From Cloacibacillus sp. An23 (GTDB taxonomy: Bacteria; Synergistota; Synergistia; Synergistales; Synergistaceae), in NCBI RefSeq assembly GCF_002159945.1, contig NZ_NFJQ01000011.1:1-64000 (forward strand): a DNA stretch of 64,000 nt. The letters run 5' to 3'. Both the position numbers and the translations under genes were made by a program. The notes under the pieces are model-generated. The model did not search any database, was not told the DNA's origin, and saw only the letters and a program-made list of their open reading frames with translations. Positions 40,450 to 46,642 of the stretch are shown piece by piece. Position 1 is the stretch's first letter. The number at the start of each line of letters is the position of its first letter.

Positions 40450-40929
40450 TTGATAAAACTGTTCGCTATGGACGTCGACGGCACTTTGACCGACGGCGGC
40501 ATCTACATGGACGGCTCGGGGAACGAAATGAAGCGCTTTGACGTCCAGGACGGGCAGGGAATAGCGGCGCTCATCAAAAAGGGCGTGAAGGTCGCCTTCA
40601 TCAGCGGGCGTTATTCAGCGCCGACGCAGAAGCGCGCGGAAGATTTGAAGATAACGCGCTGCGTCAACGGCGTCAAAGACAAGCTGCCGGAGCTTAGGAA
40701 GATAGCGGCGGAGCTTGGCGTGACGGCGGACGAGACGGCCTACGCCGGAGACGACGTCCCGGACGTCGAGTGCATCGAATGGGCCGGTCTCGGCATAGCG
40801 GTTGCGAACGCCTGCGCCGAGGCGAAGAAGGCCGCCGGTTATGTCGCCAAGCGCGGCGGAGGACGCGGCGCCATACGTGAGTGCGCGGAAATGATAATCA
40901 GAATCAACGACGGAGAGGCTGCCGATTGA
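40450..40929 (+). CDS. kdsC: 3-deoxy-D-manno-octulosonate 8-phosphate phosphatase KdsC
   Basis: KdsC (HAD superfamily) removes phosphate from Kdo-8-P to give Kdo for the LPS inner core. The 159-residue protein begins KLFAMDVDGTLTDG (nucleophile Asp and general acid Asp). It has ISGR and YAGDDVPDVECI as motifs II and IV, and like other KdsC proteins it lacks a cap domain. The start is TTG at 40450. The stop overlaps the following permease gene. kdsA and kdsB are not in this window. Confidence 0.92.
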   Translation: MIKLFAMDVDGTLTDGGIYMDGSGNEMKRFDVQDGQGIAALIKKGVKVAFISGRYSAPTQKRAEDLKITRCVNGVKDKLPELRKIAAELGVTADETAYAGDDVPDVECIEWAGLGIAVANACAEAKKAAGYVAKRGGGRGAIRECAEMIIRINDGEAAD

Positions 40930-42044
40930 ATATATCATCCTTTAAAGTAAGAGCTCTTGACCGTTTTATACTGAACGAGCTGAAAGCGCCGTTTTTCTTC
41001 GGCCTCGTCGCTTTCACTATAATCCTGGTGGCGGGAGGACTTCTCTTCCAGATGGCCGAGCTCATAATACAGAAGGGCGTTTCCATAGGCATAGTCATAA
41101 GGCTGTTCATATATTACATGCCGAGGCTCGTCGTCTTCACAATACCGATGAGCTGCCTTCTCGCGGCGCTGCTGGGCTTCGGCAAGCTTTCGGCTAATTC
41201 CGAGATAGTCGCGCTCAAGTCCGCCGGGCTTTCCTTCCAGCGCATCGTGCGCCCGGTCGTCGCGGCGGCCTTCGTCATATCCATCTGCGCCCTCGTCATA
41301 AACGAGAGCGTCGTCCCTGTCAGCGAGCGCGCGGCGGCGAACGTCATGAAGTACGAGGTGCTCCACGAATCTGCGCCGGTCTTCACTCAAAAAGTGTTCC
41401 TTAAGGAAGAGGGCGGCGGTTCCGTCGAACGCGTCATATACATAGACAAGATGGACAACGAAACAAAGGAGATGGAGAACGTCGTCGTAGAGGAATTTGA
41501 GGGCGGGCGGCTCGCCCGCATAATCGCGGCGAAAAGCGGGGAATGGCTCTCCGGAAGCTGGTGGCTGACTGACGGCGCCGTCTACGAGATAAAGAAAGAG
41601 ACCAAGGAGGTCGGGCTGCTCTTCAAGTTCAACCGCCAGGCGCTCATGCTCAACATGGAGCCGGACGAGATATCCGCGAACGACAGGAAGCCCGACGAGA
41701 TGACGATACCTGAGCTGCTGCGCGCGATAGAGATACGCGGCAAGACAGGCGCGGAGGCCGGAGACCTGTGGATGGCCTTCCATCTGCGCCTCGCCGTCCC
41801 GTGGGCCTGCCTCATCTTCGGCATACTCGGCGCGGCGCTCGGCAGCAGGCCGCAGCGTTCGAGTTCGAGCGTCGGCCTCGGCTTCAGCGTCATAATAATA
41901 TTCGTCTATTACGTTATCATGTCCTTCGGACGGGCGCTCGGCGAAAGCGGCTCGCTGCCGCCCATACTCGCCGCATGGGTTGCTAACTTCGTATTCCTTG
42001 CGATAAGCGTCTTCTTCTGTCTGAGGGCGAACAGACTCGGCTGA
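40926..42044 (+). CDS. LptF/LptG-family LPS export permease
   Basis: These six-TM permeases partner LptB to extract LPS from the inner membrane and pass it to LptC/LptA. The 372-residue product has three N-terminal TM helices (about residues 22-130), a large periplasmic beta-jellyroll domain (about 140-270), and three C-terminal helices. The segment RFILNELKAPFFFGL at the N-terminus is typical. The TTG start at 40926 overlaps the kdsC stop (TTGA) and has GGAGAGG eight bases upstream. Only one LptF/G gene is here; a second copy would be expected elsewhere. Confidence 0.9.
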   Translation: MNISSFKVRALDRFILNELKAPFFFGLVAFTIILVAGGLLFQMAELIIQKGVSIGIVIRLFIYYMPRLVVFTIPMSCLLAALLGFGKLSANSEIVALKSAGLSFQRIVRPVVAAAFVISICALVINESVVPVSERAAANVMKYEVLHESAPVFTQKVFLKEEGGGSVERVIYIDKMDNETKEMENVVVEEFEGGRLARIIAAKSGEWLSGSWWLTDGAVYEIKKETKEVGLLFKFNRQALMLNMEPDEISANDRKPDEMTIPELLRAIEIRGKTGAEAGDLWMAFHLRLAVPWACLIFGILGAALGSRPQRSSSSVGLGFSVIIIFVYYVIMSFGRALGESGSLPPILAAWVANFVFLAISVFFCLRANRLG

Positions 42045-43326: not shown

Positions 43327-43360
43327 GAAAGCGGGCCCTTCGATAAAGGCCCGCTTTTTT
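43327..43360. terminator. Strong terminator between convergent genes
   Basis: AAAGCGGGCC (43327-43336) pairs with GGCCCGCTTT (from 43347), followed by T-run on the plus strand. It separates the small plus-strand gene from the minus-strand selD. Confidence 0.8.
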
Positions 43361-43372
43361 CGTGTTTTGCGA

Positions 43373-44404
43373 TTATTTGAGGTAAAGTTTTTCGTCTCCT
43401 GCGACGAAGCGTCCGATTATCTCGGAGCGCTCGAAGCCGTTCGCGCGCAGTATGGGCAGCATTTCTTCGCATGCGCCGCGCGGCGCCGCTATGAGCAGCC
43501 CGCCTGAGGTCTGCGGGTCGAAGGCTATGTCCTCGGCGAAGCGTCCGAGCGGCGATTCGTTTATCACCCTGTCTCCTACATATTTCTTATTCTCGTACGA
43601 TCCGGCCGGGAGCAGTCCCATGTTCGCCATCTCCTCGATGCCGGGGAGGAGCGGGACCCTTGCGCATTCTATCTCGAGCGACGTCCCGCCGGACGCGAGG
43701 TCGAGCGCGTGGCTCGCGAGGCCGAAACCGGTAAGGTCTGTGCAGGCGCTCACCTTTTCGCGCAGCTTTTTCGGGAAGAGCGGCGGCACGGCGTTGAGCT
43801 TCGCCATGTTGAGCTCAGCCGCCTCGATGTTCTCCTGTGCGAACAGCCCTGCTTTGATAGCGGTGACGGCTATGCCGGTGCCCAGCGGTTTCGTCAGTAT
43901 CAGCGCGTCGCCCTCGCGAGCAGTGCCGACCGTCCACATGGCTTTGGCATCTACCTCTCCGAATACGACGAGGCCGTATTTAGGCTCCTGGTCCTGCACA
44001 CTGTGGCCTCCTGCGAGCATCGCGTTCGCCTCGATTATCTTGTTCGCGCCTCCGTCGAGTATCTCCTGAAGCACGGAGAGAGGTTCGCACGAGGTCGGGA
44101 AGCACACGACGTTGAGAGCGATTATAGGGTCTCCGCCCATCGCGTAGACGTCGCTGAGGGAGTTCGCGGCGGCGATTTCGCCGAAGCGCCTCGGGTCGTC
44201 GACGACCGGCGTAATGAAGTCTATCGTTAGTATCCCGATTCGGTCCTCGGTTATCTTCCAAAGCGCGGCGTCCTCGCCGTGGTTCCACGACGCCAGCAGC
44301 CTGTCCGTCTTGAGCACGGGCAGCCCCTTCAATATCTTGTCGAGCTCCGCCGGAGCTATCTTGGCGGCTCAGCCGCTTGTGCGCGCGCGTTCCGTCAGTC
44401 TCAT
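43373..44404 (-). CDS. selD: Selenide, water dikinase SelD, itself a selenoprotein (in-frame UGA)
   Basis: SelD makes selenophosphate, the selenium donor for Sec-tRNA and selenouridine. Reading from ATG 44404-44402 (TAGGAGG at 44421-44415 upstream) gives MRLTERARTSG, then TGA at 44371-44369, then AAKIAP. The TGA falls exactly where SelD proteins have the active-site Cys or Sec before the catalytic Lys. The frame continues without interruption for 343 residues: DFITPVVDDP, AMGGDP, LAGGHSVQD, TDLTGFGL and DPQTSGG are all family motifs. Eleven bases after the UGA the mRNA can form AGCUCC-GGC-GGAGCU, placed like a bacterial SECIS apical hairpin. A gene finder that stops at TGA would start at the TTG at 44332 and lose the active site. 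It lies 13 bases after birA. Confidence 0.92.
44336..44374 (-). promoter_or_regulatory. Candidate bacterial SECIS element in selD mRNA
   Basis: Downstream of the UGA the RNA has AGCUCC-GGC-GGAGCU, a six-pair stem with a GGC loop beginning 11-12 bases after the UGA. GAGC and CGCC just after the UGA can pair with GGCG and GCUC to extend the lower stem. Position and size agree with known bSECIS elements, which direct SelB binding. The loop does not show an obvious E. coli-like AGGU, but SelB specificity differs between lineages. Confidence 0.6.
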
Positions 44405-44417
44405 TGGAATCTGCCTC

Positions 44418-45428
44418 CTAAACCGCGCGCAGATGCTGAACGTCCGCCGCGGCGAATATTTTTTCTTCCGAACCGATTCTCACGACGAGCGCGCCTTCGT
44501 CGGTCACGTCTTCGGCGCGCCCCGTGAAGGTCTCGTCGTCCTGTATGACTTTTACGTCTTTGCCTAGAGTGTCGCACTCGCGGCGGTACAGATTTATAAG
44601 TTCCGCGCCGCCAGCCTTCGAGCAGAGCAGTCCCGTGCATTCGGCCAGGCGCGAGAGCAGTTCGACGAATACGCGCCAGCGCGGGAGAAGCTTTCCGCTC
44701 TCGATGCGGGCGGAGGTCGCCGATCCGAGCAGCTCTCCGGGAATCTCGTCCTCGGTCATGTTTATGTTAGCGCCTATTCCCGTGACGGCGTAGTAGACTC
44801 TGTCAGGTTCGCCGGCCGCCTCGCTGAGTATGCCGCATAGCTTGCGTCCGCGGCAGAGTATGTCGTTTGGCCATTTCAGCTCCGCGGGGATGGAGTAGAG
44901 CGTGCGCAGGGTGCTCTTTACCGCGACGCCCGCCGCGAGGTTGAGAAGCTGGACTTCGCCGGGCCTGATGTTCGGCCGCAGAAGCACCGAGAAGGTTAGG
45001 TTCTTGCCTGGCGCGCCGGCCCAGCTCCGTCCGCGCCGGCCTCGCCCCGACGTCTGTATCTCGCTGAAAGCGGCGACGCCGGCGGGCGCTCCCTGGCGCG
45101 CCAGGCTTTTTATCACGCTCTGCGTGCTGTCCGTCTCTTCGAGATATATGAATTTGTTAAAGAGCGGATTGCCGCGCAGAAAATATTCTATCAGCGTAGG
45201 CGGCATCGCCTGGACGCCGTCGAGACTGCCGAGCCTGTAACCTTTCTGCGGGACCGACTCGACGGGCACGCCCTCGTCGCGCAGCGCGCACACCGCCTTG
45301 AATACGGCCTGACGCGACGCGCCGAGGCGCTCCGTAACGCGCGAGCTCGAAACTATCTCGCCCGGGCTCGCGGCGAGCGCTTCGAAGAGCCTCGTCCTGC
45401 TTGTTTCCTCGCCGCAGTTTTTCGTCAT
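44418..45428 (-). CDS. birA: BirA, biotin-protein ligase and biotin operon repressor
   Basis: BirA activates biotin to biotinyl-AMP, attaches it to carboxylase or decarboxylase carrier proteins, and represses biotin genes when biotin is plentiful. The 336-residue product has an N-terminal HTH (VTERLGASRQAVFKAVCALR), a ligase core with SGRGRRGRSWAGAPGKNL and KWPNDIL, and a C-terminal SH3-like domain. The HTH means it can bind DNA. A matching operator lies at the bioY promoter, 9.5 kb downstream. ATG 45428 follows GGAGG. It is cotranscribed with selD. Confidence 0.94.
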   Translation of the reverse strand: MTKNCGEETSRTRLFEALAASPGEIVSSSRVTERLGASRQAVFKAVCALRDEGVPVESVPQKGYRLGSLDGVQAMPPTLIEYFLRGNPLFNKFIYLEETDSTQSVIKSLARQGAPAGVAAFSEIQTSGRGRRGRSWAGAPGKNLTFSVLLRPNIRPGEVQLLNLAAGVAVKSTLRTLYSIPAELKWPNDILCRGRKLCGILSEAAGEPDRVYYAVTGIGANINMTEDEIPGELLGSATSARIESGKLLPRWRVFVELLSRLAECTGLLCSKAGGAELINLYRRECDTLGKDVKVIQDDETFTGRAEDVTDEGALVVRIGSEEKIFAAADVQHLRAV

Positions 45429-45531
45429 CGCGCCACATCCTCCGTTCAAAATTGCCTAGATTATATACGATTTTTCGCAAGTTGAGGTTATAATAATGGG
45501 TAATTTGTGTATATTCAGGGGAGGGGTATTG

Positions 45532-46642
45532 ATGGTTTCGCTTCCGACGTCGACCGTCATTACAAACCTGCGTTCATCGTTTGATGAGCTGCGTGAGAGT
45601 CTTTGACCTGCCTGCGTCAGAGACAAGAATCGAAGAACTTCGCAAAATAACCGAAAAGCCGGACTTCTGGGGCTCGGACGGCTCGCAGGAGGTAACGCGC
45701 GAGCTTTCACGGCTTCAGTCAAAGCTTGACAAAGTCTCTGAAATGAGCGGCGAGCTCGATGAAATAGCGGCGATCGCTGAAATTCTGTCCGAGGGCGCGG
45801 ACGCCGAGCTCGAAGGGGAATTTTATACGCGCGCCGAAAAGCTTTCAAAGACTATAGAAGACTATCAGACCTTCGTCCTTCTCGACGGCGAATACGACGC
45901 GGGGGACGCGATAATGACGATACACGCCGGGGCCGGCGGCCTCGACTCTCAGGATTGGGCGCAGATGCTCTGCCGCATGTATATGAGATGGACTGAATCG
46001 CACGGCTACTCCGTGAAGGTCATAGACGAACTGCCCGACCAGGAAGCGGGAATAAAGAGCGTGACCTTCTCTGTTTCCGGAGATTACGCATACGGCTATC
46101 TCAAAGGCGAGCAGGGAGTCCACCGGCTCGTGCGCATATCTCCATTCGACTCGGCCAAACGCCGCCATACCAGCTTCGCGTCCGTCGAGGTCATGCCGGT
46201 GCTGCCGGAAAGCGTTCAGATAGAGATACGTCCGGAAGATCTAAAGATGGATACCTTCCGCTCGAGCGGCGCTGGAGGGCAGTACGTCAACATGACCGAC
46301 TCCGCGGTGCGCATCACGCACATCCCGACTGGGATAATAGTATCCTGCCAGACTGAGCGCTCGCAGCACATGAACCGTGCGACCGCGATGCAGGTGCTCC
46401 GCTCCAAGCTCTTCGAACGCATGATGCGAGAGCGCCAGGAGCAGCTGGACAGCATACAGGGAGAAAAAAGAACGATAGCGTGGGGCAGCCAGATACGCTC
46501 GTACACGCTACAGCCATTTCAGCTCGTGAAGGATCACCGTTCCGGCTGCGAGATAGGAAACGTGCAGGCCGTGCTCGACGGAAACATCGACGAGCTCATA
46601 ATCGCTTATCTGCGTTTCCTGAAAAACGACAAAAAACAGTAA
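45532..46642 (+). CDS. prfB: Peptide chain release factor 2, with programmed +1 frameshift
   Basis: RF2 terminates at UGA and UAA. ATG 45532 (after GGGGAGGGG) opens 24 codons ending CTT at 45601, followed by TGA at 45604-45606 and C. A +1 slip on CTT continues with GAC at 45605 and gives DLPASETRIEEL, in frame to 46642, for 369 residues. CUU UGA C is the classical RF2 autoregulatory site. The body has the RF2 anticodon-like SPF in RISPFDS and the catalytic GGQ in GAGGQYVN. The Shine-Dalgarno-like stimulator upstream is weak (GUGAG). It is divergent from birA. Confidence 0.95.

Follow-up and report, generated by a model that had tools for sequence, protein, structure and literature searches.

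An in-frame UGA codon in selD of Cloacibacillus sp. An23

We analyzed a 64,000-nucleotide stretch of DNA (the window; assembly GCF_002159945.1, contig NZ_NFJQ01000011.1, positions 1 to 64,000 of the forward strand) from Cloacibacillus sp. An23, a gut bacterium of the family Synergistaceae. The minus strand of the window carries selD, which encodes selenide, water dikinase (i.e., selenophosphate synthetase), at positions 43373 to 44404, with a UGA codon in frame at codon 12 (44369 to 44371) and a short hairpin behind it (44343 to 44357). On the comparative evidence presented below, it is nearly certain that the gene encodes the selenoprotein form of the enzyme, in which the UGA is predicted to be read as selenocysteine (Sec12).

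The reading frame starts with ATG at 44404, runs through ten codons (RLTERARTSG) to the TGA, resumes with AAKIAP, and stays open until a TAA at 43373. The product has 343 residues, with the predicted Sec12 included in the count. A first-pass annotation of the window had described this frame of 343 codons, from the ATG and the ten codons ending in Ser-Gly to the AAKIAP after the TGA, and the translation reproduced it exactly. The read-through protein gave a full-length match to the NCBIfam selD equivalog TIGR00476 (327 bits; cutoff, 125; residues 2 to 308), and its alignments with the solved SelDs of Aquifex (2yye) and Escherichia coli (3u0o) span almost the entire length. In both alignments, the predicted Sec12 falls on a Cys and Lys15 (44360 to 44362, minus strand) falls on the following Lys; we take these residues to be Cys17 and Lys20 in the E. 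coli numbering, and their catalytic role is likewise presumed from general knowledge of the family. The active-site motif is U-A-A-K in the window SelD, whereas it is C-G-C-K in E. coli and C-A-A-K in Aquifex. The spacing of three residues between U12 and the conserved K15, together with the conserved core residues, identifies the protein as a SelD, and the alignments agree with the first-pass placement of the TGA at the Cys/Sec site by the catalytic Lys.

Conservation of the UGA codon

We searched for relatives of the gene in 61 genomes drawn from the family and order of the organism. UGA-type SelDs were found at 45 loci in 44 of these genomes (41 to 100% identity), including members of other families of the order, and the UGA always occupied the same codon. 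The closest named genome is the metagenome-assembled genome Candidatus Caccocola faecipullorum (91% identity). The flanks of the UGA are conserved on both sides across the order (RLTE..TSGUAAKI), and G11, U12, A13, A14, and K15 were invariant in 40 sequences. A wider set of 80 SelDs from many phyla contained UGA (45 sequences), UGU (26 sequences), or UGC (9 sequences) at this codon and nothing else. The UGA is therefore either kept or exchanged only for Cys codons, both in the family and order (45 UGA and 1 Cys) and in the wider set (45 UGA and 35 Cys), so that the alignment of Sec- and Cys-type SelDs proposed in the first-pass annotation yielded Sec or Cys throughout.

The sole Cys-type SelD in the family and order search (L067, motif SGGCGAK) came from contig C79 of genome G047. 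Since this genome is 6% contaminated, the sequence may be foreign. A second, distant SelD lineage (41 to 49% identity) was detected in a few Synergistaceae (L066, L068, and L069 from G036, G004, and G037, respectively); its members likewise carry UGA at this codon, in the motif U-A-A-K or U-M-A-K. These sequences form a separate clade, which suggests horizontal acquisition.

Selenocysteine machinery and other selenoprotein genes

The genome from which the window derives (2.9 Mb; 99% complete) encodes the Sec machinery. The selA (569 bits) and selB (384 bits) genes adjoin each other at C1:85857-89165, and a tRNA-Sec gene (selC; 76.9 bits) with the anticodon UCA lies at C8:180129. The genome also carries a GrdA gene with an in-frame UGA and five GrdB-type genes in which the UGA stands in the context T(S/A)TUGT(C/S)(T/S)RCG, and thus has at least seven selenoprotein genes when SelD is included. 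We looked for the formate dehydrogenase FdhA in the same genome and did not find it. The first-pass annotation had proposed Sec as the meaning of UGA in this organism, had named selA, selB, and selC as the genes whose absence would speak against this, and had expected Sec in other genes. All three genes are present, the machinery and the conserved UGA support the proposed decoding, and the additional UGA-containing genes bear out the expectation. The organism would use UGA as a Sec codon, and amino acid fermentation by selenoenzymes of the glycine reductase type is probable. In six of the relatives (G002, G007, G012, G013, G016, and G018), selA, GrdA, and SelD are absent together.

A hairpin under selection after the UGA codon

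The sequence AGCUCC-GGC-GGAGCU (44343 to 44357, minus strand) forms a 6-bp stem with a GGC loop; the hairpin starts 11 bases past the UGA, exactly where the first-pass annotation had placed it, and the loop lies 17 nt past the UGA. Folding of the single sequence was uninformative, and we therefore used synonymous-recoding controls instead; the hairpin reached significance only under such controls across the relatives. For each of 40 sequences, the energy of the hairpin was below the mean of its synonymous recodings (mean z, -2.0); P was ≤0.05 for 21 of these 40 relatives, which are not independent of one another. Across the 277 scored columns of the gene, synonymous constraint is highest at the hairpin codons 16 to 23 (codons 13 to 25 versus the rest, P = 0.0007), and codon 19 is GCG in every Ala-bearing pair (observed, 1.00; expected, 0.28). 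Among the 30 sequences that form the 6-bp stem, the middle base pair is G-C (18 sequences), C-G (9 sequences), or G-U (3 sequences), and the compensatory G-C/C-G change also exchanges Gly and Ala at residue 17 and Asp and Glu at residue 20.

A scan of the window with Rfam detected tRNAs only and no selenocysteine insertion sequence (SECIS) match. The hairpin shares with bacterial SECIS (bSECIS) elements (PMC1088965) the position of a small stem-loop straight after the UGA within the coding sequence and a small apical loop containing G; it differs from them in that the stem occurs in three versions across Synergistales, one of which is register shifted, with up to 8 bp. Its retention through compensatory change and through the shifted version supports its assignment as a putative bacterial SECIS. 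The synonymous constraint, the compensatory change, and the recoding controls point in the same direction as the bSECIS reading of the first-pass annotation.

Alternative readings of the UGA codon

If the UGA were a true stop, SelD would begin at the downstream TTG at 44332 and have neither the Sec/Cys residue nor the Lys. A standard open reading frame (ORF) caller indeed reports only 43373 to 44332, starting at this internal TTG, so that the active site is lost in routine annotation; gene callers of this kind would shorten this SelD in general use. Against such a start, the residues that precede and follow the UGA are conserved throughout the order, and the shortened protein would be without Lys15. 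Codon 25 itself is TTA, TTG, CTG, or CTC among the relatives, and no downstream start is conserved. The first-pass annotation had considered that relatives might show a normal stop with the protein starting downstream; instead, they keep the UGA and its coding flanks, and we give the downstream start very little credence. A sequencing error, or a point mutation that had recently altered a Cys codon, would make the gene a pseudogene or a Cys-type selD; it needs only one change (UGC or UGU to UGA), and Cys types do occur in other groups. Yet the same UGA is found in 44 genomes, those of other families of the order included, and this explanation, already refuted by the relatives, is the least probable of all.

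Reassignment of UGA throughout the genome (e.g., to Trp), or its reading by a near-cognate tRNA, would also leave the frame open without Sec. We found no point in its favor. The neighboring genes at 40450 to 40929 and 40881 to 42044 terminate in UGA, the genome has release factor 2 (RF2; prfB), whose gene itself contains a UGA-dependent frameshift site, the relatives have Cys and never Trp at the site, and tRNA-Sec, SelA, and SelB are all encoded; its probability is as slight as that of the downstream start. On the basis of conservation, the relatives, and the machinery, we thus rejected all three of these alternatives.

Some observations weigh against the prediction of a Sec-containing SelD. 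The predicted Sec12 is known here from the gene sequence alone. The hairpin, taken by itself, is short and not unusually stable (z of -0.21 for a 57-nt stretch against shuffled sequences). Furthermore, three genomes (G005, G011, and G024) have selA, selB, and tRNA-Sec and no SelD detectable even with the SelD family model, so that the concordance of the gene set is imperfect; gaps in the draft assemblies are the simplest cause. The birA matches of G005 and G024 lie mid-contig, and no selD was found there. With these points taken into account, we still consider the prediction of Sec in this SelD very secure.

For this predicted Sec-type SelD, we propose the following decoding. Ribosomes would arrive at the UGA of codon 12, where, by analogy with the known family, SelB carrying Sec-tRNA(UCA) would bind the hairpin 11 nt downstream, and Sec would be inserted in place of termination by RF2. 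Sec12, beside Lys15, would then be the redox or nucleophilic active-site residue in the conversion of selenide and ATP to selenophosphate, as expected from related enzymes, and SelA would use the selenophosphate to make more Sec-tRNA. A SelD that depends in this way on the product that it makes is an already known curiosity.

A register-shifted form of the hairpin

In 11 members of the family, the GAG codon occurs in the absence of GCU, and the 6-bp form is thereby broken. Most of them, as well as a fragment from genome G017, can pair instead as a register-shifted stem of 7 to 8 bp, which encloses a GGA loop or, in the fragment, GGU; two loci (L039 and L040) can form the slipped stem only with an internal mismatch. 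In the protein tree, the GCU/GAG sequences form a single clade (100/99) inside the lineages with the slipped form, and the GGU/GAC-or-GAU group lies on the opposite side (97/86). This placement puts the slipped form between the two 6-bp forms, with the direction of change depending on the root of the tree, which is uncertain.

The hairpin of Synergistales selD may thus have swapped its base pair via a slipped, longer stem, with the GGU/AGU..GAG lineages bridging GGU..GAC and GCU..GAG; we hold this history to be evenly balanced between right and wrong. Since the register-shifted stem bridges both 6-bp versions, the same history would imply that the signal was never lost while codons 17 and 20 changed. 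It is a small new detail, of which we found no earlier description in the cited literature. The natural hairpin series offers a clean set for probing how far SelB tolerates SECIS variants.

Relation to known Sec-type SelDs

Sec has been reported in 19% of the SelDs in a reference set of 223 prokaryotic genomes, always at the same position (Mariotti et al. 2015, PMC4561486), and an earlier list, with 38 SelD sequences, counts it among the selenoproteins found most widely in bacteria (Zhang et al. 2006, PMC1794560). For Synergistetes, a 2016 survey found 13 of 14 genomes to use Sec and described the phylum as rich in selenoproteins (PMC5029168). The seven or more selenoprotein genes of the window genome fit this picture, the difference being that the species apparently has no individual description. 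The window SelD has the whole protein, the UGA position, the Sec-x-x-Lys motif, and the hairpin directly behind the UGA in common with Sec-type SelD (COG0709, TIGR00476), with no essential difference. Given this literature, the case, the hairpin series apart, is not new in kind: the arrangement is already familiar from many bacteria, this phylum included. The first-pass annotation was correct that Sec-type SelD occurs in several bacteria (PMC4561486, PMC1794560); the interest that it assigned to the case was overstated.

Genes adjoining selD

The biotin ligase gene birA (44418 to 45449; NCBIfam TIGR00121) lies directly upstream of selD on the same strand. Its stop codon overlaps GGAGG (44414 to 44418, minus strand), which we read as the ribosome-binding site of selD. 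A likely intrinsic terminator hairpin, GCGGGCCC...GGGCCCGC-TTT, follows selD at 43331 to 43354 (minus strand). In one relative (L051 of G059), selD lies in a selenium gene cluster with genes whose translations resemble a YedE-like transporter, a SirA-like protein, and a cysteine desulfurase/Sec lyase-like protein.

The prfB gene (45532 to 46642, plus strand) adjoins birA-selD divergently (43373 to 46642 in all), an arrangement shared by 26 of the 46 SelD loci examined. Programmed +1 frameshifting is a classic feature of RF2 genes; the slip site (CUU UGA C; 45601 to 45607) follows 24 codons from the ATG at 45532, was present in 29 of 29 loci scanned, and is accompanied by a wrong TTG start for prfB in the ORF list. 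Two UGA-recoded genes therefore stand together, one of them encoding RF2, the competitor of Sec insertion; their proximity is possibly only conserved gene order.
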